A DNA stretch of 64,000 nt. It comes from Escallonia rubra. Its lineage: Eukaryota; Streptophyta; Magnoliopsida; Escalloniales; Escalloniaceae. The DNA lies in NCBI GenBank assembly GCA_033065855.1, contig JAVXUO010000986.1, forward strand, positions 124,001 to 188,000, given 5' to 3'. This document shows positions 12,419 to 62,162 of this stretch, in pieces; position 1 is the stretch's first letter; each line of letters opens with the position of its first letter. The notes below the pieces were generated by a model. That model had not been told where the DNA came from. It made no database searches and saw only the letters and a list, made by a program, of their open reading frames with translations. Position numbers and translations under genes: made by a program.

Positions 12419-12644
12419 AGTTTTTCCGCTAAGTTGCCCGCGCGATCTAGCCTTCCATATGGCCAGATGGGCGGGCCAGATTTTGTCGTCCGCTACGATC
12501 CAGATCTATTTTTTGCGCTTTTTTTTTGTCGTCCGCTAAATAATATAGCTGACGACAAAATCTGGCCCGCCCATCGGGCCAGATGTAAGGCCAGATTGCG
12601 CCGGCAACTTAGCGAAAGTTGCCCGCGCGTGAATTGGATCAGCT

Positions 12645-12707
<63 letters not shown>
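12419..12707. mobile_element. Truncated (TA)n-flanked MULE-like terminal fragment
   Basis: The fragment contains two inverted copies of a TTGCCCGCGCG block and the CCAGATTTTGTCGTC / GACGACAAAATCTGG arms around a GTCCGCTA box. It ends in GGATCAGCTCC next to about 28 TA units. The same terminus (GGAGCTGATCC next to TA repeats) occurs at 45.66 kb, 45.85 kb and both ends of 59541-62160. The matching Tekay 3' LTR (about 23410-23475) lacks it. The left terminus is missing, together with about 50 bp of LTR. Confidence 0.65.
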
Positions 12708-26050: not shown

Positions 26051-27793
26051 CTAGTCAATTGTAAGTAGCTCTCCTGTAAAACTACCAATAGGATATGAAG
26101 CACTTGTCCACCAGCCAAGAGCCCTGGCAAGTTGTAGAAACACAAAGCACAAGTATATTGCAAGGAGGCCTCCTCCCAAAAGCCGATCAAGCTGCATGTT
26201 CTTCTTAGGCAGTATCACAAGGGCCCAAAGTAGTCCGCACATTAGAAATCCCATTGTTTCATAAAGACAAGGATCCGTAGGAATCACAAATGAAGATGGA
26301 TACACGGACCACGATGAGAACACAAGTGACAACCCCAAACCCACCAATGTATTGTATAGGGGCCCTGCGTAACAGCCCGAAATTGCGATCTGGGCCCCGT
26401 CTGGCCCGCCATTCGTTGCCAAAGCCACATTACTTACCAAATCTCCAATTGAATTGCCCCAAGCAAGTAGAGTAACCGCTAAAATTGAAGGACTTATTCC
26501 AACTATGATCCCAAGTGAACTCAACAAAGAAACCAATTCCTCAGCAGCAATATAAATCCAAGTGATGCTCATTGCAAACCCACCTGCTAGCCAAAGGACC
26601 AGGTACTTTTTCGGTGGGCTCAGGCTAGACTTGCTAGTGGCCAAAAAAGCACAACTACCAAGAACTATCCCAACGAACCCAGAAGTAATGTAAATTATCA
26701 AACTAGTCTTGGAGCCCATGTCCTCTCTTTGGGTGTTCCACAGAGTCGCTATTAAAACTGGAGCCAAGAATACTGAAGTAATTGCAAATGGCCTAGACCA
26801 TCTTTCTTCACTAATTGCTGGAATAGTAAGCCTTCTTGGTAAGTAAAGTGGCAACTCCAAAACCTTAAGAAGCAAACCAAGGTAATTACCATTACTACCG
26901 CTCCATTCTTCACACCCAAATTTCTCATCCGAAACACAGTTTTCCACATCAACACCCCCCAATAAGGGATCATCCATCTCAACAAACTCTTCTTTTGCTG
27001 AAGTTACTCTTTCTTTCTTACCGTAGAAGAAATGCATGATGGAAATCACACATACGTACACAAAATAAACCATGGTAAAACAAATAGAAACCCAAAAGTT
27101 TATCCTTCCAACAAGAATAATTAGCAGTAGTAAACCAAGAGAAAATAGAAAGAAAACTACATCTCGAACGAAGCTAGTCTTATCAACTACTATTTTCCTC
27201 GAAGCACCTGTCATGCATATAACTCCGACAACAATACTTGATATGAAAAAAGCTCCGCCCAAGATGGTGTTTAGGCCCACTTCACCATTACCGGATTGGG
27301 CAAACGAGACAATACTTTCGAAGACATCGTTGGCGCCATTTCCTAGCGGAAGAAGGATGGCTCCGGTGATGGTTGGAGGTAGGTTCATAACCCTTGACAA
27401 GTTTTCCAAGGCAGGACAAAAGTAATCCGATGCTGTGTTACCCAAGAGATATATTAATAGAAGAAACCACACGAGAAGTATGGTATATCCTAACACAGGG
27501 AATCTCCCACAGGTGCAGTAGAAGATTTCGAGAAAGTTTACGTAGGATTTTGGGTGGCAGGGGATATGTGACTTTATGTATGCGCACTTGGCTTTGTAGT
27601 CGGGGTAGTCTTGAAAGGCGGTGCAATCGTCGTCGTTTTGGTCATGGGTGTTGGGAGATTTTCTGAAGGGGGTGATGGAGGTGCTGGACTTCATGCGGGG
27701 GAGAAGATCGGTAATGAGATGGAGAGACATAAGTAAGATGAAGGAGGTGTTGAGGATGAGAGATAATACCTTTGTTGAGGCGAGACTTTTCAT
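26051..27793 (-). CDS. CCX: Cation/Ca2+ exchanger (CCX family), copy 1
   Basis: This is a 580-residue intronless membrane protein of the plant CCX branch of the Ca2+/cation antiporters. These exchange Ca2+, K+, Na+ or Mn2+ against another cation across the plasma or an internal membrane. The N terminus is a hydrophobic anchor or signal (residues 5-32). A cysteine-containing non-membrane segment follows (about 57-96), then two groups of transmembrane helices separated by a hydrophilic loop (about 258-305). The alpha-1 motif GNGANDVFES is at 151-160, preceded by a PP.ITGAILLPL helix. The alpha-2 motif AWGNSIGDLVSN is at 444-455. Length fits the family. I start at the ATG ending at 27793 because the in-frame codon at 27914-27916 is TTG, not ATG, and no upstream ATG exists in frame. 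The frame is open throughout, so the gene is probably functional. Confidence 0.95.
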   Translation of the reverse strand: MKSLASTKVLSLILNTSFILLMSLHLITDLLPRMKSSTSITPFRKSPNTHDQNDDDCTAFQDYPDYKAKCAYIKSHIPCHPKSYVNFLEIFYCTCGRFPVLGYTILLVWFLLLIYLLGNTASDYFCPALENLSRVMNLPPTITGAILLPLGNGANDVFESIVSFAQSGNGEVGLNTILGGAFFISSIVVGVICMTGASRKIVVDKTSFVRDVVFFLFSLGLLLLIILVGRINFWVSICFTMVYFVYVCVISIMHFFYGKKERVTSAKEEFVEMDDPLLGGVDVENCVSDEKFGCEEWSGSNGNYLGLLLKVLELPLYLPRRLTIPAISEERWSRPFAITSVFLAPVLIATLWNTQREDMGSKTSLIIYITSGFVGIVLGSCAFLATSKSSLSPPKKYLVLWLAGGFAMSITWIYIAAEELVSLLSSLGIIVGISPSILAVTLLAWGNSIGDLVSNVALATNGGPDGAQIAISGCYAGPLYNTLVGLGLSLVFSSWSVYPSSFVIPTDPCLYETMGFLMCGLLWALVILPKKNMQLDRLLGGGLLAIYLCFVFLQLARALGWWTSASYPIGSFTGELLTID

Positions 27794-28044
27794 TGTGGAA
27801 GATGGTGAGGATTGGAGAGGTATTACAGAGGTGATGGCTCTTGAGTCTTGAACAAAGTAGCGAAGTATTTCTGGGTCAACTGATTTATAGAGGACGAGGT
27901 GTGTGATAGGAAACAAGCAGTGGGTCTAGTGGGGGGTGCGGTGGGGCTTTGAAGTGAGCTTCCTTTTCTGTTTCTTCCTTTTCTTTTGTACGGGGGGAAG
28001 GTATCAATGGCAAGTGAGCTTCCTTTTGAATCCCTTACTAATTT
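27794..28044. promoter_or_regulatory. Upstream flank of CCX copy 1 (shared part ends near 27955)
   Basis: About 160 bp upstream of the ATG is shared with CCX copy 2, including an open frame lacking an ATG (probably 5' UTR) and a G-rich CAGTGGGTCTAGTGGGG segment. Homology ends near 27955. A short GTGAGCTTCCTTTT direct repeat follows (about 27954 and 28013), and CACTA copy B starts near 28045. Any CCX1 promoter elements must lie within transposon-derived DNA. No TATA box is assigned. Confidence 0.45.
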
Positions 28045-45611: not shown

Positions 45612-45615
<4 letters not shown>

Positions 45616-45663
<48 letters not shown>

Positions 45664-45788
45664 AGCTGATCCGTTGACCGCGCAGGCAAAATGGGTTAAG
45701 TTGTCCGCACGATCTGGCCGTCCATCCTTTAAGGATGGATGGCCCAGATCTTTTTTTTTTGTAAAAAAGAAAACCGTCCGCTACATAA

Positions 45789-45853
<65 letters not shown>

Positions 45854-46170
45854 GAGCTGATCCGTTGACCGCGCGGGCAAATGGGTTAAGTTGTCCGCAC
45901 GATCTAGCCGTCCATCCTTTAAGGATGGATGGCCCAAATCTTTTTTTTTTATGTAAAAAAGAAAACCGTCCGCTATATAGTGTAGGAGACGGTTTTTTTT
46001 ACCAAAATGCCCCTTGGAACTCGTCCGCTACAGAGTGTAGCGAATGACTTTTTGACCCTGACAATTGTCAATCAAAAATTCATCCGCTACACAGTGTGGC
46101 GGATGACTTTTGGCTGACACATGTCACATCCTGTCCCCTACGATGTCTGCTAGACAGTGTGGAGGACGAC
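45616..46170 (+). mobile_element. (TA)n-flanked MULE-like left terminus, end duplicated in tandem
   Basis: Two TA runs (45616-45660 and 45797-45850) are each followed by GGAGCTGATCCGTTGACCGC, a CCGTCCATCCTTTAAGGATGG palindromic block, an AAATC-T(n) tract and GTCCGCTA boxes. The first copy stops at 45790. The second continues through four more TCCGCTACAYAGTGTRGCGGA-type palindromes to about 46160. The same terminus lies at both ends of the gene-capturing element at 59541-62160. It lies about 580 bp upstream of a FAR1/MULE transposase gene in the same orientation and may be that element's left end. Confidence 0.65.
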
Positions 46171-46391
46171 GTGACAGATATACCCAAAACTGCTCTAATT
46201 CTCAGCTCTTTTTGCATTTTCATCTCCTTGAGATCCACTTACTTCCATTTTCAGCTTCCTTCAAGTTCCAAGTTTCAAGTAACACTTGCTTCAAGGAAGC
46301 TAAGTTTGTGAATGGTGAAGTTTTCTTTATGGGTTGAATGATGAAGTTTTTTTTTTTTTTTTGATGAATATATAATTTTTTTTTTTTTTTT

Positions 46392-46690
46392 GGATTATGT
46401 TTGTTGTATTTATCAGTCTATTCATCAAAGTAATTTTAATTTGTGATGTTTAAGAAATTAATTTTTTAACTTCAAAAAAATTATTATAGTTAAATTCAAT
46501 TTTTTTAAGATTATGTTTGTTGTATTTTGGCATGCTAAATTTGTCTATTCATCTTAGTAATTTTAATTTGTTATGTTCAAGAAATTAATAATTCTTAAAT
46601 TGAAGATACTTTTGAGATTATGTTTGTTATATTTTTCATGCTAAATTAGTCTATTGATCAAGGTAATTTTGATTTGTTATGTTTAAGAAA
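46392..46690. repeat. Tandem repeat, about 110-bp period, three units
   Basis: Units begin GATTATGTTTGTTGTATTT at about 46392, 46510 and 46617 and include GTAATTTTAATTTGT and AAGAAATTAAT blocks. Poly-T tracts at 46347 and 46378 precede it. It lies between the MULE-like terminus and the transposase ATG, probably as 5' leader or intron. Confidence 0.7.
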
Positions 46691-46743
46691 CGCCATTTGA
46701 TAGTTAAGCGTAATCTATTTCTCCATAGGTTTTGTTTCACAAT

Positions 46744-48568
46744 GTTTGATTTCGTGTCAAGCTCCAACACCACAGTAGATGCTAGTGATCCGTATCTAGG
46801 GCGAACATTTCGAACATTGGAGGAAGCCGAAGAATGTTTTCGAGCGTAAGGTTGGTTTTGACATTAGAATAAAGACTACAAGAACAAGCAACATAACAAA
46901 AAAAATATGCTCTTCCTTATACGAGTGTCGTAGGAGCAGACACCCACTGCAAAATGAGACACACGTCAGTAATGATGATAATGATGACGAAATAGGATAT
47001 GCGCGGAGAAGACGGGGCTGCTTTGCGCGCACAAATTGCAAGGTCAAGATGTTCATAAGCCATATACCCAAGCAAGATCATTGGCTTATTACTAGCTTGG
47101 AATTGGCACACAATTACCCGTTAGTAACCCCTTCTAAGGTGAGTCAGATGCATCAACACAAGAAGATACCTAATCTTGCAAGGAGCCTGATTCTCATAAT
47201 GAGTAATGCGCGGATAGGACCTACCGACATTGTTAATGTTTTTGCTGAACAGGCTGAAAAAATTCAGAATCTAAATTTTAACACGACAAACGTTTGTAAC
47301 GCGGTCCGAACCCAAAGACGAGCCGCGTATGACCTCAATGATGCTCAATCCACAATGAGCCTATTGAAGTGGATGCAGATAGAGGACCCGCAGTTTACCT
47401 ACGATTATAAAATTGACGACGAGCATCGAATTACCATAATTTTTTGGGCCGACGGTCGTTCGATACTTGCTTATAAGCATTTTGGGGATGTTGTGACTTT
47501 CGACACCACATACCGTACCAACAAGTACTCGATGTCGTTTGCTCCTTTCACAGGCGTCAATCATCATTATCACTACATCCTGCTCGGGTTCGCTTTCTTA
47601 AGGGACCAGAGCGAGAGTTGTTTTGTATGGTTGTTTAGGGCATGGCTGGAAGCAATGAACTTCAAAGCACCTAAAGTTATCATCACCGATCAAGATTTGG
47701 CAATGAAGAAGGCTATTGCTACCGTCTTCCCAGATAATCGACACAACTTGTGCACTTGGCACATAAGCAACAAATACCCTGAACGCTGCATCACATGTAT
47801 GCAAAGTATTCAGACTTTAAACATGATTTTGACAAGTGGGTTAACAAGTCGTTAACGATTGTGGAATTTGAGGAGAGGTGGGAAAAGCTTGTTGAGGATT
47901 ACTCATTGTAAGACAACGATTGGCTCCAACACTTGTATGAGCTCAAAGAGCAATGGATTGGCGTTTACACGAGAAGGTGTTTTGCGGGCATGAAAATGAC
48001 GGGTCAGAGTGAATCTATGAATGCCACGTTCAATAGTTATGTAGGTACATCTACCAATTTGAAGAGCCCAAAAAGTGATTGCCTCGTTATTTCTTGAAAT
48101 AAAGGGCTGTAGACTTAACAAGGACGTACAAACAAAGGATAAGGTTTCTTGAGACCCCGCTGGAGGTGAACGGTGCAAAGTCTAAGGAGATGTTCATGCA
48201 ATACCAAGTAGAGCTGGAAAAATCGGGACGATATAGTATAAACAAGGTGGAAGAAAAGTCTACACGTGAGTACAAGGTTTATTGGCTGATGGACGACCTC
48301 GTCGCTGAGAAGCTGCGTAGAATGTATACAGTGAGCCCTGACACATTGACGGATTCGATGACATGTGTTTGCAAGAAGTTTGAGTTCCATGGTATCCTGT
48401 GTAGAAACATTCTGTGCTTTTTCATCCAGAAGAATATCAAGGCAATCCCCGATAAATACGTCATGCCGCGGTGGACGAAGGTTGCAAACAGGTTGCATGA
48501 TACCATTGCCTTTTCGGAGCATCCGTATACTGACTTTGAAGAATCAGAGATGTTTGAGGTATTATCAT
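46744..48568 (+). pseudogene. FAR1/MULE-type transposase gene, broken by frameshifts and stops
   Basis: The start is MFDFVSSSN at 46744. An N-terminal FAR1-type DNA-binding region follows (LGRTFRTLEEAEECF, then after a frameshift near 46851 VGFDIRIKTTRTS ... CFARTNCKVK). The long open part 47049-47855 holds the MULE transposase domain, with FWADGRSILAYKHFGDVVTFDTTYRTNKY, a second acidic block in KVIITDQDLAMKKAI, and a CTWHI motif. A frameshift near 47787, a TAA near 47909 and a further shift near 48060 break it. A SWIM-like zinc finger is at 48361-48420 (CVCKKFEFHGILCRN), with N where the family has H. It belongs to the Jittery/FAR1 branch of MULEs. The Sirevirus LTR cuts it off at 48581. Confidence 0.85.
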
Positions 48569-48580
48569 CTGGTGACAATG

Positions 48581-49848
48581 TGTTAACCCTACGGTTATTT
48601 AACCTATGATTATATTTAATTTTGATGATAACTAACATTGATGCTTATGTTGTCTAACATGCATTGAGTTGATGAAGAAATAAGTACAATCTCATACTCA
48701 TGCAAACGAACAATTAGACGAGCAAATCGATCAAAGACACTCAGGGGAACGCATCAAAGATGGAATACTTCGATTGAGTTTTACAATGATTTATATTCCT
48801 TTCTTTGTAACTAGACATAGAGAGTTGATCGTATCGATGACTTGACTTAGAATTTTCCCATACGTTTCCCTTACATGCATAAACTTTTTCATTCTTTGAA
48901 AATAGGGAAAATTGCATATTCTGGAATACAGTCGACTGCAAGTTGGGCAGAGAGTTTTTACAGTCGACTGAATTGGAATGCAGTCGACTGAAATAATTCC
49001 AGTAGCCTATTACAGTCGACTGCAATTGAAAATTTTGAATTTCCAACGGCTACTTTGAGAATACAGTCGACTGCGTTTACCGTTTGGCGCATTAAATGTC
49101 CTACCAACTTCTAAGAGGTCATATTAATTCCCACAACTATATAAACTCATTTTGGGCATAGTTTTGATTCATCAATTGCATTCAAAGCCCTCTTATCTTG
49201 CATATACTCAAATATCAAAGCAATTGTTCAATCTCTCTTGGTTTTCATTGTTTTCTCATCCAATCCAAGAGAGCATTTATTGTGAGCTTACATTTGAGAG
49301 ATATACACTTTTATAAGTCATCATACACTCATCTTTCTTGTTCTAGAGCTTAAACTTGTACTCATCTACTTCTTGAGAGTGAATCTTTGTACACAATTCT
49401 TCATCTAAATTTTCTTGTATCAACGCTTGGGGTTGTCAAGATTTGGAGCTTTGTGATTTTCAAAGCTTGTTCTTGATGTGGGTATAGCATCAAGGGATTG
49501 TAAGAGGTTCGATCTTAACCCGTAAGAAAGATCATACTAGTGGATTCTTGGGCCTTTCAGGGACTTCCTTGAAGGGGTGGACGTAGGCTTGAGGGTAATT
49601 CGAGCCAAACCATCTAAATCTCAAGCGTCAAGTATCTCTAAACCCTTTTCTCTTTACATTATTGTTTTATACTTGTGTTGAGATTGATTAGATTGCTTAT
49701 TTGAGATATTGTGTTTGAGGTTTGTTGATTGAAGCTATTTAACTGTTCTTCATAGTTTCTCTAAGTTTGTAGTGATTACTTGTTAATTTTTTTAAAGTAG
49801 TCTTAAAACCCTATTCACCCCCACTCTAGGGTTATCTTTTTAGTTTCA
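48581..49848 (+). repeat. Sirevirus 5' LTR, 1268 bp, complete
   Basis: Starts TGTTAACCCTACGG and ends in CA two bases before the PBS. It matches the minus-strand LTR at 35988-37196. A cluster of perfect CAGTCGACTG palindromes lies at 48929-49072 (five or six copies). The end, with CTATTCACCCCCACTCTAGG, is typical of Sirevirus LTRs. Confidence 0.92.
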
Positions 49849-52539: not shown

Positions 52540-55348
52540 GAGTGTGTGAAAAAAAAGTGTGCAATAACGTGTATCACCTAAAGATAATCGGTGGAAAACA
52601 TACGTCGTCGGTGAAAAACTGGCCTAATCTGGGGCCTACGTTTGCGTTCCCTTCTTGTATGTTGAAGTTCCATCCTTATGGTCAAAACTAATGAAGGAGA
52701 AGAGGGGATTTCAAGAACTTATAAAAGGAAATTATAGTTGGAGAAGGATTAGAGAGAGAAATCCTTCTTGGGGTCAAATTTGATAGAGAATGTGAGTAGA
52801 TTATGATTGGAAGTATCGCGCCAAAATCTGAAAAGAGAACCGACCAGTTTTCTAGTTTAGATCTGTCAAACTCACTAACAAATCATCCAATTTTTGACAT
52901 TTTCATTTGTCGCAATCTAAACACTCTAACTGACTTGACGGTGTTCTACATGTTATTTTGGCCCTTCCAAATCTCTAATCAACCGGCCGATTTTAGGTAT
53001 CAAAAAAAAATATGAGAGAGAATTTTTCTTCTTGTGTGCTTTTGTGCTTAGTTTGAAATTCACTTGCATATTTGCATGCTTTCAATTAAATTTCAAAAAT
53101 GTCCCTTAATTTTGTGAATATTGTGTGCATATGTGCTTTCATGCTTATACTTTGAAATTCGTGAAAGTTTATGATTACCAAATCTATTGCCCAATTTAGT
53201 GATATAAAACAGTGTAAGGTCTAGTATCGTCTTGTATCCTTTATTGCCAGAAGCTACATTTTCTCTATACCAAATAGGGAATAAGTTGATAGAGTTCAAC
53301 ATTCAACGACCATCTGTCCTTAGACATCGTTGGCTCTAGATTTAAGTGATTTTACTACAATTTTTCCTTTTATATGTCTAAGCGACCAACCACTTCCATA
53401 AGTTGTTTGCTTTGACTCTTGGATATTCTAGCGTTCCTAAGTGACCAATTGCTTCCATGCATTGTTGCCTTCGGCTCTTAGGTTCTCCCTTTCATGTATC
53501 TAAGCGACCAACCACTTCCACGCGTTGTTGGCTCCAACTCTTGGATATATTCCAGTGTTCTTAAGCTACCTACCCTTTACACGCGTTGTTGGCTCTAGCT
53601 CTTGGACATATTCTAGTGTTCGTAAGCGACCAACCTCTTTCATGCGTTGTTGGCTCCAGCTTTTAGGTTCACCCTTTCATGTGTTAAATTGACCAACTGC
53701 TCCCACGCGTTCTTAGCTCCAGCTCTCGGATATATTCTAGTGTTCCAAAGCGACCAACCGCTTTCACGCGTTGTCGGCTCTGTCTCTTGGATATACTCCA
53801 GTGTTCCTAAAAGACCAACAGCTTCCACGAGTTGTTGGCTCCAGTTCTTAGGTGTGACATTTTTTTTCTTTTTAGTTTTCTTAGACGAACAATTGTTGTT
53901 ACAGTTGGTTCCGGCCCCAGACAAGGTTCGACTTCATTTTCTCTGATGACATTGTTCAATGACTAGTAGTTGTTATTGCTGGCTCCGGCTTCGACCAATA
54001 TCCGCACTTTATCCTAATTAGTTAGATTCCTCATCGGGGGATACGTAAGAAGCCCTATAAAGGTCTGACATCATATCTATGTATAATCCGCGAGCTCGTT
54101 TAAGGTCTCATGGTCTATTTCCTGTTTCTCTACAAAAAAATGTGTTGCTTTTCTCTGATGTTCGCCGCGAGCAAGCTCCCTCGCTGATGGGCTCTTTAGA
54201 TAACCCATTTTTGTAATCATTTGTAATAAAATAATTATTGGGCTTTATTAATTAGAGTTGTTACTAGGGTCAGGCCTGATAATATAGCTTAATTAATTTA
54301 ATATAGTCCATTACTAGTCCAGTCCAATTGTCCAGTCATGTTAGTAATTGGGTCCAGTCCAATCAGTAGGTTGGTCAAGTCCACATGTCAAGAGAGTGAT
54401 TTTACTTAGAAGATTTCATATTATTTGTGATTTATCATCGATGCAATTGATTTAAATGCAACAAGAAGATAATTTTTGAATCTTATACATCACATCTAAT
54501 AAATTAAAGATAATTACCGAATTAGGGTAACTTAATGTCTCGAAATTCAGAAAAAAAAAATTAATTTTAAATTATGAAATGAATCGGCCGCTTTTCAAAA
54601 AATTGACCGATTGGTTGACTTTTCTAAGTCTGCGATTTTTATCAAATATTTTGTCTTAGCATCAGATTACAGACACCTCTAAAGACTTTTTAAGTCTCTT
54701 GCATCATGGATTCTTCATAAAGTATTTCGAGTCTTCTAAGCAAGCAGACTGACAAGGTAGATTTTGTCGCTTTCTAAGCTAGTCTAATATAATGGTTCAG
54801 GATGTGTCTCCTTACCCGCAATCACATTTCATTTCCAATGTAATAATCATAAAAAAGAGTCTTTTCATTTCTTAGTTCGAGTCTAAGAGCAAAGTGTAGG
54901 TCGTCTACGGCCCGTAGGATCAGAGTTGAACTACGGTTATTTTGATTCTGCTTTACCAGGCCATATACGTAAGCCGTTCGACCCCTGATGTCAAGTTCAA
55001 ATCAATAATATAGAATCAAATTTACGGTTTATATTATTGCATGGTTATGTGTTAAAAAGCCCAAAAATTAATAGAAATAAAATAGAGACCAAAAGGTTAT
55101 GGCGGATCCTGACACCTTCCCGTCGTATAACTTAGTCCTGGAATCCATCTTTTTGTTTTCTAGAAATTAGTAGTCTTTTTGGATACTTTTAGAGTCATTT
55201 TTCATGTTTTATTATTTTCTTGTGTTTTAACTAAATAAAATGGCGACTTCCTAATTTAGACTCCTCGGTCTAGGATTTTTTCGAGGCGGTTCAAGACAAA
55301 CGTGTTAGACAACCACTGAATGCGATGGGGGGCCAAATTCAATAGCCA
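52540..55348 (+). mobile_element. Tat-lineage Ty3/gypsy LTR, plus strand, about 2.8 kb
   Basis: Matches 1-2535 reversed. The start is estimated at the TGTGTGAAAAAAAAGTG block near 52547. The end is at CA just before the GGCGACTCC site. A GAGGCGGTTCAAGACAAACG-like and CCACTGAATGCGATGGGGGG tail precedes the PBS, typical of this lineage's LTR end. It contains tandem repeats at 53340-53960. No coding sequence is present. Confidence 0.6.
53340..53960. repeat. Tandem repeat, about 60-bp period, nine to ten units
   Basis: The unit is AAGCGACCAAC followed by YGCTTCCACGCGTTGTTGGC, TCCAGCTCTTGGATATATTC and an AGTGTTCCT tail. It is the reverse complement of the GGAGCCAAC/GTTGGTCGCTT units at about 1395-1570, but expanded here, while the other copy expanded a different unit. 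Confidence 0.8.
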
Positions 55349-56020: not shown

Positions 56021-57724
56021 TTATGAAACACTTGTCCACCAGCCAAGAGCCCTGGCAAGTTGTAGAAACACAAAGCAGAAGTATATTGCAAGGAGGCCTC
56101 CTCCCAAAAGCCGATTAAGCTGCATGTTCTTCTTAGGCAGTATCACAAGTGCCCAAAGTAGTCCGCCCATTAGAAATCCGATTGTTTCATAAAGACAAGG
56201 ATTCCTAGGAATCACAAATGAAGATGGATATACGGACCATGATGAGAAAACAACTGACAACCCCAAACCCACCAATGTATTGTACAGGGGCCCTGCGTAA
56301 CAGCCCGAAATTGCAATCTGGGCCCCGTCTGGCCCGCCATTCGTTGCCAAAGCCACATTACTCACCAAATCTCCAGTTGAATTACCCCAAGCAAGTAGAG
56401 TAACCGCTAAAATTGAAGGACTTATTCCAACTATGATCCCAAGTGAACTCAACAAAGAAACCAACTCCTCAGCAGCAATATAAATCCAAGTGATGCTCAT
56501 TACAAACCCAGCTGCTAGCCAAAGGACCAAGCATTTTTTCGGTGGGCTCAGGCTAAACTTGCTAGTGGCCAAAAAAGCACAACTGCCAAGAACTATCCCA
56601 ACGAACCCAGAAGTAATGTAAATTATCAAACTAGTCTTGGAGCCCATGTCCTCTCTTTGGGTGTTCCACAGAGTCGCTATTAAAATTGGAGCCAAGAATA
56701 CTGAAGTAATTGCAAATGGCCTAGACCATCTTTCTTCACTAACTGCTGGAATAGTAAGTCTTCTAGGCAAGTAAAGTGGCAACTCCAAAACTTTAAGAAG
56801 CAAACCAAGGTAATTACCATTACTACCGTTCCATTCTTCACACCCAAATTTCTCATCGGAAAAACAGTTTTCCACATCAACACCCCCCAATAAGGGATCA
56901 GTAATCTCAACAAACTCTTCTTTTGCTGAAGCTACTCTTTCTTTCTTACAGTAGAAGAAATGCGTGATGGAAATCACACATACGTACACAAAATAAACCA
57001 TGGTAAAACAAATAGCAACCCAAAAGTTTATCCTTCCAACAAGAATAATTAGCAGTAATGAACCAAGAGAAAATAGAAAGAAAACTACATCTCGAACGAA
57101 GCTAGTCTTATCAACTACTATTTTCCTCGAAGCACCTGTTATGCATATAACTCCGACAACAATACTTGATATGAAAAAAGCTCCGCCCAAGACAGTGTTT
57201 AGGCCCACTTCACCATTACCGGATTGGGCAAACGAGATAATACTTTCAAAGACATCGTTGGCGCCATTTCCTAGCGGAAGAAGGATGGCTCCGGTGATGG
57301 TTGGAGGGAGGTTCATAACCCTTGACAAGTTTTTCAAGGAATGACAAAAGTAGTCCGATGCTGTGTTACCTAAGAGATATATTAATAGAAGAAACCACAG
57401 GAGAAGTATGGTGTATCCTAACACAGGGAATCTCCCACAGGTGCAGTAGAAGATTTCGAGAAAGTTTATGTAGGCTTTTGGGTGGCAGGGGATATGTGAC
57501 TTTATGTATGCGCACTTGGCTTTGTAGTCGGGGTAATCGTGAAAGGCAGTGCAAGCGTCGTCGTTTTGATCATGGGTGTTGGGAGATTTTGTGAAGGGGG
57601 TGATGGAGGTGGTGCTGGACTTCATGCGGGGAAGAAGATTGGTAATGAGATGGAGAGACAGAAGGAAGATGAAGGAGGTGTTGAGGATGAGAGATAATAC
57701 CTTTGTTGAGGCGAGACTTTTCAT
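56021..57724 (-). CDS. CCX: Cation/Ca2+ exchanger (CCX family), copy 2, shortened C terminus
   Basis: A 567-residue intronless protein about 93% identical to copy 1 (roughly 40 substitutions by eye and one extra threonine near residue 39). The alpha-1 motif GNGANDVFES (152-161) is unchanged. The alpha-2 motif reads GNSTGDL (447-453) where copy 1 has GNSIGDL. The protein ends WWTSVS, 14 residues short of copy 1. Homology between the loci stops at the same point, so the new stop comes from the breakpoint junction. All membrane segments remain, so it may still work. I start at the ATG ending at 57724: the in-frame codon at 57848-57850 is TTG. The frame is fully open, which suggests a recent copy or selection. 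Confidence 0.92.
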   Translation of the reverse strand: MKSLASTKVLSLILNTSFIFLLSLHLITNLLPRMKSSTTSITPFTKSPNTHDQNDDACTAFHDYPDYKAKCAYIKSHIPCHPKAYINFLEIFYCTCGRFPVLGYTILLLWFLLLIYLLGNTASDYFCHSLKNLSRVMNLPPTITGAILLPLGNGANDVFESIISFAQSGNGEVGLNTVLGGAFFISSIVVGVICITGASRKIVVDKTSFVRDVVFFLFSLGSLLLIILVGRINFWVAICFTMVYFVYVCVISITHFFYCKKERVASAKEEFVEITDPLLGGVDVENCFSDEKFGCEEWNGSNGNYLGLLLKVLELPLYLPRRLTIPAVSEERWSRPFAITSVFLAPILIATLWNTQREDMGSKTSLIIYITSGFVGIVLGSCAFLATSKFSLSPPKKCLVLWLAAGFVMSITWIYIAAEELVSLLSSLGIIVGISPSILAVTLLAWGNSTGDLVSNVALATNGGPDGAQIAISGCYAGPLYNTLVGLGLSVVFSSWSVYPSSFVIPRNPCLYETIGFLMGGLLWALVILPKKNMQLNRLLGGGLLAIYFCFVFLQLARALGWWTSVS

Positions 57725-57883
57725 TGTGGAAGATGGAGAGGATTGGAGAGGTATTACAGAGGTGATTGCTATTGATTCTTGAACAAAGTAGTAGTGAAGT
57801 CTTTCTGGGTCAAGTGATTTGCAGAAGACGAGGTGTTTGATCAGAAACAAGCAATGGGTTTGGTGGGGGTGGGGCTTTGTAAG
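57725..57883. promoter_or_regulatory. Upstream flank of CCX copy 2 shared with copy 1
   Basis: About 160 bp of 5' flank, including the ATG-less open frame and the G-rich segment, is shared with copy 1. Homology ends at the GGGGCTTTG block near 57880, just before a hairpin. The duplicated segment therefore holds only the gene and a short 5' flank, so the two copies have different distal promoters. Confidence 0.5.
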
Positions 57884-59068: not shown

Positions 59069-60260
59069 TTATGTAAAGCAAAAATATTCTTATCAATGTA
59101 CTTTTACACTTGTGGTGTTTATTATTTAAATTGAATTGTCTATTATTGATGGTGGTTGACTATTTAAATTGAGTTGTCTTTTATACTCGGTCGTGCCACA
59201 TTGTTATCAATTTAACTTTTTCATTTAAGTTGTTTATTATTCAAGCGAACTACACGGTTATTAATTTACTTTTGCACTTAAGTTGTTTATTATTCAAGCG
59301 AACTAATTAAACTCAATTAACTTTTGCACTTAAGTCTTTTGTAGATATGCCAAGATCCAGTGCACCCCGAGGTCGTAGAGGCGGCCGTCGCGGAGCGGCT
59401 TCGACACAGTCAACCCCTTCCCCAGGATTAGTGACACGACTACTGATGAGCAGTTGATGTTGTCATCAATAGCTTCAGTACATGGTGAGACAATATTAGT
59501 TTCGTGTTGAATTGAAACATATTTGTTGCAATATTATATTATATATATATATATATATATGGGAACTGATTCGTTGAGAGCGCTAGCAAAATAGGAGAAG
59601 TTGCAAGCGCGATCAGGCTGTCCACGCGCGATCTGTGAACGGTCCAGATCTTTTTTTTTTTTACGTTTTTTAAAGTACGTCCGCTACATAATATAGCGGA
59701 CGATCTTTTGATAAAAATACCCTCCAGCTCCATCCGCTACATTATGTAACGGACGAGTAGGCAGTGTCTTCTGGATTTTTTTTTCTCTCTCTCTCTTTTC
59801 TTTCATTAAATTTCTGACAGATTCTCTCTCTCCTTTATCTTGCCGCTACATTATGTAGCGTACTAATTTTCTGGCTTTTTTCTCTTTCTCTCTCCTTTTC
59901 CTCATTTAATGTTCTGACATTCTCTCATTTCTCTCTCCTCTCTCTCATCATTTTTTTTCTCTTTCTCTTTCTCTCTCATTTCTCTAATTTACTTCGTGAC
60001 TCTCTCTCTTTCTCTCAGATATACAAAAACCAAGTTGTACTTTTTTCTCTTTCTCTTTCTCTCTCCTGCCTCAAAAGTAAAACCCATAACCAGAATATGG
60101 CTACATTTTAGATACATAGCTACTCTCATCATACATGTAGTACGGCTGACCCACAAGCTATCTTTGAAATACATCTGGGTATAACTTTTTTCTTGTTTCG
60201 ATCCTTCTCAACAGAGTAGTTAAAAAGAAGAAATGGGGTCAAGAAGTGGAAGGGCCCAGA

Positions 60261-60440
60261 CATGGAAATGCAAGACTATCAAGGAGGTAGCTTGAAAAAG
60301 GAGAGTTCATGGGAAGTTAAACATGGAAATGCAAGACTATTAAGGAGGCAGTTTGAAAAAGGAGAGTTCATGGGAAGTACAACTGGGTTTTTGTCAAAAG
60401 GAGAGTTCATGGGAAGTACAACTGGGTTTTTGTCTTCATT
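60261..60440. repeat. Overlapping direct duplications in module 1 of the gene-capturing element
   Basis: A unit starting ACATGGAAATGCAAGACTAT and ending GAGTTCATGGGAAGT occurs at about 60261 and 60322. A second unit starting AAAGGAGAGTTCATGGGAAG and ending GGGTTTTTGTC occurs at about 60357 and 60397. The source of this inner sequence (60060-60500) is not recognised; it may be another captured fragment. Confidence 0.75.
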
Positions 60441-61054
60441 CTTCTATATCTGCATAAATCCTTCCACCTTTCAATTTCCCTTCTTGATCAAGTTTTGCCA
60501 ACTAATTTTTGTATATCTAAGAGAGAGAGAGAGTCACGAAGTAAATTAGAGAAAGGAAAGAGAAAGAGAAAAAAATGATGAGAGAATGTCAGAACATTAA
60601 ATGAGGAAAAGGAGAGAGAAAGAGAAAAAAGCCAGAAAATTAGTCCGCTACATAATGTAGCGGCAAGATAAAGGAGAGAGAGAATCTGTTAGAAATTTAA
60701 TGAGAGAAAGGAGAGAGAAAGAGAAAAAAAAAAGCCAGAAGACACTGCTTACTCGTCCGCTACATAATGTAGCGGATAGAGCTAGAGGGTATTTCTATAT
60801 TATGTAGCGGACGTACTTTAAAAAACGTAAAAAAAAAAGATTTGGACCACTCAGATCTTTTTTTTAAGTCCGTCCGCTATAGTATGTAGCAGATTATTTT
60901 TTGACAAAAATACTTTCCAACTTAAAAACAGCCCATCCACTACATTATGTAGCGGATTAGTTTTCTAACATTTTTTTCTCTCTGTCCCCTTTCTCTCATT
61001 AATGCACTTTTTCCTTCTCTCTCTCTCTCTGTGTCCTTTCTCTTCTTTCTATAT

Positions 61055-61692
61055 AGGTACCAAATTCTCCTTGAATCTGCCCCAAACCCTTTCTGTATCA
61101 TCAAGAATCAGAATGCCACTTTATCTCCCTGGCACCCAATCAAGGTGCTTTAAAGCTTCCTGGTCACAATGCTCTCTTGAGAACATTCTAGTCGGATCGA
61201 AGTACACACCTTCAGGGTCAAGTAAATTAGCCATCTCCAGTGCATAAGGACGACAAGCCTTTGTGAATATGTAAAGCTCGAACATGCTGCTTGTTTCTTT
61301 CAGAAAGGCACGAACACCGGGCCCCAGAAAATTAGCACGCCGATGGACTCCGCTGCGTAGAGGTCGTTTGTCTCTGTTTGGCTCGCTAGGTTCTCCTCTT
61401 CAGTTCTCACAATGGAGTGAAGTAGCGTGTGATCCAAATCAAGAACCAAGATATTCTTTTTTAGGAGAAACAACATCTCCATGTAGTGATCTCGCCTTCG
61501 GGTAATTCGAATTTCAGTGTCATCGATGTGCCCCAGATCGCTCTGCGTACCGGAGGGATTTGCAACAGCTGAATTCTTATCATCCATGAATCGCTCACAT
61601 AGTGTACCCATTGTCAACTTCAATTCTGAAAGAAGAGGAAAGGAGGGGAGAGGAGGACGAGAGAGAAGAAAAAAGTGGTGAGAGAGAGACAC
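61055..61692 (-). pseudogene. CPL: Captured RNA polymerase II CTD phosphatase-like (FCP1 domain) gene fragment
   Basis: On the minus strand the frame reads LFLLKKNILVLDLDHTLLHS, the DxDxT catalytic motif of FCP1/SCP phosphatases. After a frameshift near 61325 it continues VRAFLKETSSMFELYIFTK, ACRPYALEMANLLDPEGVYF, then MFSREHCDQEALKHLDW and SGILILDDTERVWGRFKENL. This is the FCP1 homology core of plant C-terminal-domain phosphatase-like proteins (CPL3/CPL4 type), which remove phosphate from the Pol II tail. A TAA follows WVPGR where the family has glutamate. Exons appear joined without obvious introns. It lies between the purine/pyrimidine arms of module 2. It cannot encode a full phosphatase but could give antisense or small RNAs. 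Confidence 0.87.
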
Positions 61693-61819
61693 ACAACTCA
61701 GAAAGAAGAGAAAGGACAGAGAGAGAGAGAGGAAAAAAAGTCAGACCATTAATGAGAGAAATAGGAGAGAGAAAAAAATGTCAGAAAACTAATCCGCTAC
61801 ATAATGTAGCGGATGAGAG

Positions 61820-61855
<36 letters not shown>

Positions 61856-62110
61856 AAGTCAGAGTAATAATGAGAGAGAAGAGAGAGAAAGAGAAAAAAA
61901 ATGTCAAAAAATAGTCCGCTACATAATGTAGCGGATGGGCTGTTTTTAAGTTTGAGGGTATTTTTTATCAAAAAATCGTCCGCTACATAATATAGCGAAC
62001 GGCTTTAAAAAACGTAAAAAAAAGATCTGGGCCATCCACAGATCGCGCGTGGATGGCCAGATCGCGCTTGCAACTTCTCTTATTTTGTTAGCGCTCTCAA
62101 CGGACCAGCT

Positions 62111-62114
<4 letters not shown>

Positions 62115-62160
<46 letters not shown>
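62115..62160. repeat. (TA)n microsatellite at right end of the gene-capturing element
   Basis: About 23 TA units abut the element terminus; a shorter run (59541-59560) abuts the left end. TA runs next to this terminus recur at 12.65, 45.64 and 45.82 kb. Confidence 0.95.

Positions 62161-62162
<2 letters not shown>

Follow-up and report, generated by a model that had tools for sequence, protein, structure and literature searches.

In a 64-kb stretch of the Escallonia rubra genome (64,000 nucleotides, referred to here as the window), two successive fold-back structures lie side by side between TA microsatellites, and one of them encloses a piece of a phosphatase gene. The locus raises the question of whether such a layout is native to one transposon, or whether two transposons became joined and now move as one. 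The element occupies 2,553 bp (positions 59561-62113), and its parts, together with a related MULE remnant in the same window, are as follows:

45852-48609, plus strand: related MULE remnant with FAR1 and MULE-transposase domains in a broken frame; its terminus lies beside (TA)n
59541-59560, no strand: (AT)10 tract, left border
59561-59760, plus strand: left terminal inverted repeat, the start of arm A
59641-60028, plus strand: left arm of module 1, pyrimidine-rich, with palindromic subterminal repeats
60029-60505, no strand: loop of module 1 (cargo 1), with 61-bp and 39-bp tandem repeats
60506-60848, minus strand: inner arm B of module 1, without about 80 outer bases of the terminal repeat
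60839-60857, no strand: fusion junction, GATTTGGACCACTCAGATC
60850-61046, plus strand: inner arm C of module 2, without about 82 outer bases of the terminal repeat
61046-61611, minus strand: cargo 2, part of a CPL4-like phosphatase gene, corresponding to residues 1-189 of a homologue of 260 residues
61641-62113, minus strand: outer arm D of module 2, holding the right terminal inverted repeat
62114-62161, no strand: (TA)24 tract, right border

Ends, arms and a related MULE remnant

The left end of the element reads GGGAACTGATTCGTTGAG from position 59561, and the right end, read inward from 62113, is GGGAGCTGGTCCGTTGAG. The original prediction gave the terminus as GGGARCTGATYCGTTGA, which is exact at the left end and has one mismatch at the right, and it described terminal inverted repeats of about 200 bp beside TA microsatellites. 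These were confirmed: the two repeats (the right one at approximately 61914-62113, within arm D) are 82% identical over 205 columns by blastn (E 2e-55), or 179/215 identical in a multiple alignment, and adjoin (AT)10 and (TA)24. Long terminal inverted repeats are expected of a MULE, and a microsatellite on both flanks is expected of the SaTar elements discussed below. A target-site duplication at the element itself is unreadable within the TA repeats. No second copy of the flanks was found within the 64-kb window, and an Rfam scan of the window gave nothing at the gathering score.

The two predicted fold-back modules are both evident, with pairing scores far above those of shuffled sequences. 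The arms of module 1, at 59641-60028 and 60848-60506, pair with a score of 492 (the best of 200 shuffles reached 42), and those of module 2, at 60860-61044 and 62012-61822, with a score of 201 (36 for the best shuffle). The RNA folding energies per nt are -0.515 (module 1) and -0.363 (module 2), while 12 random stretches from the first 58 kb of the window gave -0.197 to -0.260. Eleven near-copies of the palindrome GCTACATWATRTAGC are found across the arms, and 22 of the 27 rows of a two-strand scan for it fall within the element, the expectation for the window being 0.30 rows. The 477-bp loop of module 1 (cargo 1) has no Pfam match in two translated frames. Elsewhere in the window, a minisatellite with 61-bp and 185-bp periods is located at 53378-53853.

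The MULE remnant matches PF10551 (E 1.9e-30) and PF03101 (E 1.7e-8), and its terminus is 67-75% similar to the ends of the element, which are in this way related to a transposase-bearing MULE. Its right terminus was not found by blastn in the window, and a search behind it for LTRs of at least 100 bp yielded nothing but a 185-bp tandem pair. The remnant would represent a relative of the transposase source, and is not put forward here as the mover itself. In front of it (region 45615-48609) is a duplicate of about 130 bp of its left terminus, at 45661-45796. The motif CACGCGC, reported as an FHY3/FAR1 binding site (PMC6000157), has four occurrences in the window, both strands counted (59623, 62045, 12625 and 45458); 50 first-order resamplings gave a mean of 0.68 and a maximum of 3. 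Three of the four sites lie in termini of the element's transposon group, and the transposase-bearing relative lacks the motif at the corresponding place.

A broken phosphatase gene piece

An FCP1-domain (CPL-like) fragment carrying the motif DLDHT had been proposed as the cargo of module 2. This cargo is indeed of the CPL4/FCP1 type and has the DLDHT motif. It aligns in two frames, with 83/108 and 84/94 identical residues, to residues 1-189 of the 260-aa E. rubra protein P0003 (RJ640_010972). P0003 has a PF03031 domain (E 4.2e-30), and its gene lies elsewhere in the genome, on a contig of 1,899,794 bases. It is a candidate for the parent CPL gene, but may be a sibling of cargo 2 instead. A 130-aa ORF had no Pfam match at 0.001, and a sub-threshold one to PF03031 (E 0.0053).

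The coding sequence of cargo 2 is interrupted by a frameshift at about 61327-61335, a stop codon at 61121-61123 and a second stop at the end of the homology. The same frameshift, and the stop after VPGR/VPER, are present in all five complete copies of the element (see below), one of which (L011) has an additional frame change, and the cargo was thus dead before the fused unit spread. A protein of E. herrerae (P0002) ends at the same DWVPGR, with 49/53 residues identical there, and this hints that the dead piece is present in that species too.

The public gene model RJ640_020588 (P0071, E. rubra), named protein-serine/threonine phosphatase in UniRef, ends in an out-of-frame, transposon-borne piece: its last 92 residues are identical to 61399-61124, and a tblastn search of the window with its first 155 residues found nothing at E 1e-3. 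Another model, RJ640_020586 (P0123, E. rubra), is identical over 518/518 aligned residues to 27793-26240. Two cation/calcium exchanger genes (26051-27916 and 56021-57850), with about 93% protein identity, lie 30 kb apart on the same strand.

Copies, junction and subfamilies

A search of the E. rubra assembly (566,129,122 bases) with positions 59541-60500 gave at least 74 matches, spread over 34 contigs, from the 40 that were scored among 3,382 first-look candidates. This is a repetitive family of the kind that SaTar elements form. Loci were inspected on 20 of the 33 other contigs, including those where the match extended well into cargo 1. Complete two-module copies were found on C2866 (L009), C1450 (L010), C893 (L011) and C923 (L012), each with cargo 1, the junction, arm C, cargo 2 and both ends, and their cargo 2 sequences are 95.1-95.4% identical to that of the window. 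Since the flanks of L009 and L010 are 97-99% alike, the two were counted as one site; they appear to be the same locus on two contigs, perhaps uncollapsed alleles. The fused unit is complete at three insertion sites besides the window and shortened at a further one (L013, on C2187), which has module 1 and the junction, then 78 bases of the start of arm C before running directly into a right end. This shortened copy (L013:1573-2987) looks like an internal-deletion derivative, and a further terminus piece is found nearby.

The complete copies are 93.9-95.6% identical (2344/2474, 2344/2473, 2329/2437 and 2314/2462 to the window, and 2305/2434 to 2340/2448 among the remainder), and the double locus C2866/C1450 is 98.9% identical (2484/2512). 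Fused copies begin and end at termini beside TA-rich tracts, as in the window. When 1,040 bases on each side were compared (leaving out the 60 bases adjoining the element), no flank matches at E ≤ 1e-8 were seen between the sites beyond the C2866/C1450 pair and one shared repeat, a 129-bp sequence common to the flanks of L009/L010 and L013. A single junction, unrelated flanks and ends at microsatellites indicate that the fused unit moved whole. The original prediction had allowed that other copies might show no consistent ends, but the copies found have both consistent ends and the same junction.

At the junction in the window (60839-60857), arms B and C meet without their termini and without a TA tract between them, in agreement with the predicted joining of the inner arms at 60845-60855. 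The layout is the same in six of six sequences, with the consensus GATCTGGACCnCCCAGATC and small variants; the other copies read GATCTGGACC(n)CCCAGATC, with small changes. Past the breakpoint on the B side, the unfused element L014 (described below) continues as ...GATCGTCCACAGATCGCGCG and the outer left end as ...GACCGTTCACAGATCGCGCG, and past it on the C side the outer right end continues as GGATGGCCCAGATC. Because of the consensus of the other copies, the break is placed near repeat positions 80 and 83, with one unassigned base and an overlap of 0-1 bases. About 80 outer bases of B and about 82 of C would have been lost at the fusion, along with the TA tract. A 6-bp microhomology deletion at CAGATC (64 of 14,161 breakpoint pairs share at least 6 bases) was considered and dropped, as the consensus moves the breakpoint.

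Single-module copies, which the original prediction had suggested looking for, were found for module 1 and not for module 2 with its cargo. L014 (on C1077) is an unfused module 1 element with the cargo 1 loop and both full ends. It is flanked by an 11-bp direct repeat (ATATATTTTTT), and MULE target-site duplications are reported to be 8-11 bp long (PMC5907723), but the duplication is not firm, as the right end is frayed and the repeat is AT-rich. Cargo 2 was not found in L014-L028 at E 1e-4, nor was an unfused module 2 with the phosphatase piece, and none of the loci inspected had both parents intact with a TA tract between them.

The relationships of the arms were examined in a tree built from the arms of four fused copies and of L013 and L014, plus 19 ends at 13 other loci, with end positions set by hand. 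The A and B arms and both ends of L014 form one group (support 0.999). A second group (support 0.980) is made up of arms C and D together with ends of L020, L021, L023, L024 and L026, and within it arm C is on a long branch. Two-against-two sites in the window number nine for AB|CD and zero for the alternatives (82 columns, leaving out DNA used twice). A first count in the window alone, 11:1:1 in 103 columns, had included junction DNA read in both directions, and in those 103 columns the closeness of C-D (83) scarcely exceeds that of A-D (82). Counted per copy, the sites for AB|CD, AC|BD and AD|BC are 13:0:2, 12:1:1, 13:0:0 and 12:3:0. The joining of two elements of different subfamilies is largely supported, given that an unfused module 1 exists and that the arms of module 2 group with other, single fold-back elements.

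Stacking at TA tracts also occurs: in the C2866/C1450 copy the tract on the left is adjoined by the end of another element, as is the right TA tract of L024. Two relatives (L023:1224-2805 and L026:1442-2680) are flanked on one side or both by TG/TC or CA repeats and not by TA alone, and SaTar elements have been reported in non-TA satellites too (PMC5907723). A small fold-back relative of the same terminus group, at 12421-12646 in the window, adjoins (AT)29.

Probable origin of the fused unit and comparable systems

The element is a non-autonomous Mutator-like transposon of the microsatellite-targeting kind, derived from two subfamilies. It is very probable that two TA-targeting MULEs fused with loss of their facing ends, and that the joined unit then spread as one. 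The parents were most likely neighbours within a single TA tract, and would have been joined by a deletion of about 80 and about 82 bases of the facing ends plus the intervening tract, leaving a unit with one full end from each parent. With transposase presumably supplied in trans by a FAR1/Jittery-type MULE, a relative of which would have left the remnant at 45852, this unit transposed whole to four or more other sites, and the copy at one of these is now shortened. The cargo, which covers the first three quarters of a CPL4-like phosphatase gene, had been broken before the spread. The predicted fusion moving as one is upheld by four unrelated sites with complete copies (the window included), a fifth with a shortened copy, one junction, and arms in separate groups.

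The first step could have been different, with the joining produced when gap repair of a single element switched templates, an account that overlaps with the preferred reading in all that follows. Gap filling with template switching has been proposed for capture by TIR transposons (PMC8277862), but here switches would be needed at both borders, whereas arm D, with the right end, goes with arm C. The near-equal losses (80 and 82 bases) would instead suit removal of the centre of two facing inverted ends, and stacking at TA tracts is observed in the element's transposon group, so this route is considered unlikely.

A four-arm layout native to one family, with nothing fused, recalls a 292-bp MuTAnT element that shows four similar segments (PMC4486113), but it is very improbable in view of L014, in which module 1 stands alone with full ends, of the arms of both modules grouping apart, each with other elements, and of both inner arms lacking exactly the outermost bases. 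There is scarcely any likelihood that the copies arose by segmental duplication, or that the window copy is an assembly error. The C2866 and C1450 contigs do represent one locus twice, and the published E. rubra genome (566 Mb) is a nanopore draft of 3,233 contigs (PMC10759652). Against this, the other sites have no common flanks, the copies end at termini by TA-rich tracts, the same junction is present on six contigs, and the reported mean read length of 9.4 kb exceeds the length of the element (PMC10759652).

Fusion of two TA-targeting MULEs, followed by spread, can be set beside several described systems. The element resembles SaTar of guayule, rice, sorghum and citrus (PMC5907723): non-autonomous MULEs with long terminal repeats that lie in microsatellites and stack there. 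Fusions of neighbouring SaTar elements, in which a deletion removed the linking satellite together with element ends, are described, and the Escallonia fusion is likened to these; stacking and fusion are both observed in Escallonia, the fusion having probably arisen by deletion. Unlike SaTar, the fused pair in Escallonia is itself multi-copy, the comparison being one of descriptions and not of sequences (PMC5907723). The main text of that paper uses 'fusion' twice and 'fused' once, in the passages concerned never of a fused unit that moves, and the terms 'single unit', 'as a unit', 'composite' and 'gene fragment' do not occur in it. MuTAnT of Medicago truncatula shares the (TA)n target and the fold-back modules, and an autonomous partner with a Jittery-like transposase and 9-nt duplications outside the TA repeats are reported for it (PMC4486113). 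It differs in its terminus mask, GGGGTTTGCTAGAACA, which is not matched by the Escallonia termini (GGGAACTGATTCGTTG and GGGAGCTGGTCCGTTG), and in that 90% of its copies are 200-300 bp (PMC4486113). TAFT (maize) and Micron (rice) likewise have TA microsatellite targets, a likeness by description only (PMC4486113, PMC5907723). With a gene piece between MULE terminal repeats, multiplied along with them, the element also has the arrangement of a Pack-MULE; it differs from Pack-MULEs in having a fused double fold-back as the carrier and a piece that was already dead at the time of spread.

The original claim of a non-standard transposon form therefore holds only in part. TA-flanked fold-back MULEs (PMC4486113) and deletion-fused SaTar elements (PMC5907723) are already in print, whereas no precedent for the spread of a fused unit was noticed in the passages of these papers, and no spreading fused MULE was noticed among the listed titles on fused or multimeric MITEs and composite MULEs. 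The new part would be the multiplication of the fused pair with a dead gene piece along, of which no report was found in these sources, fusion as such having been described before.

A tentative extension is that stacking in microsatellites and loss of facing ends may be a general plant route to larger mobile, multi-cargo transposons across subfamilies, with the Escallonia unit as one documented case. A fused transposon pair would here be mobile in its own right, combining arms from two subfamilies with two cargos, and the step from a stacked array to a new transposon becomes testable within one genus.
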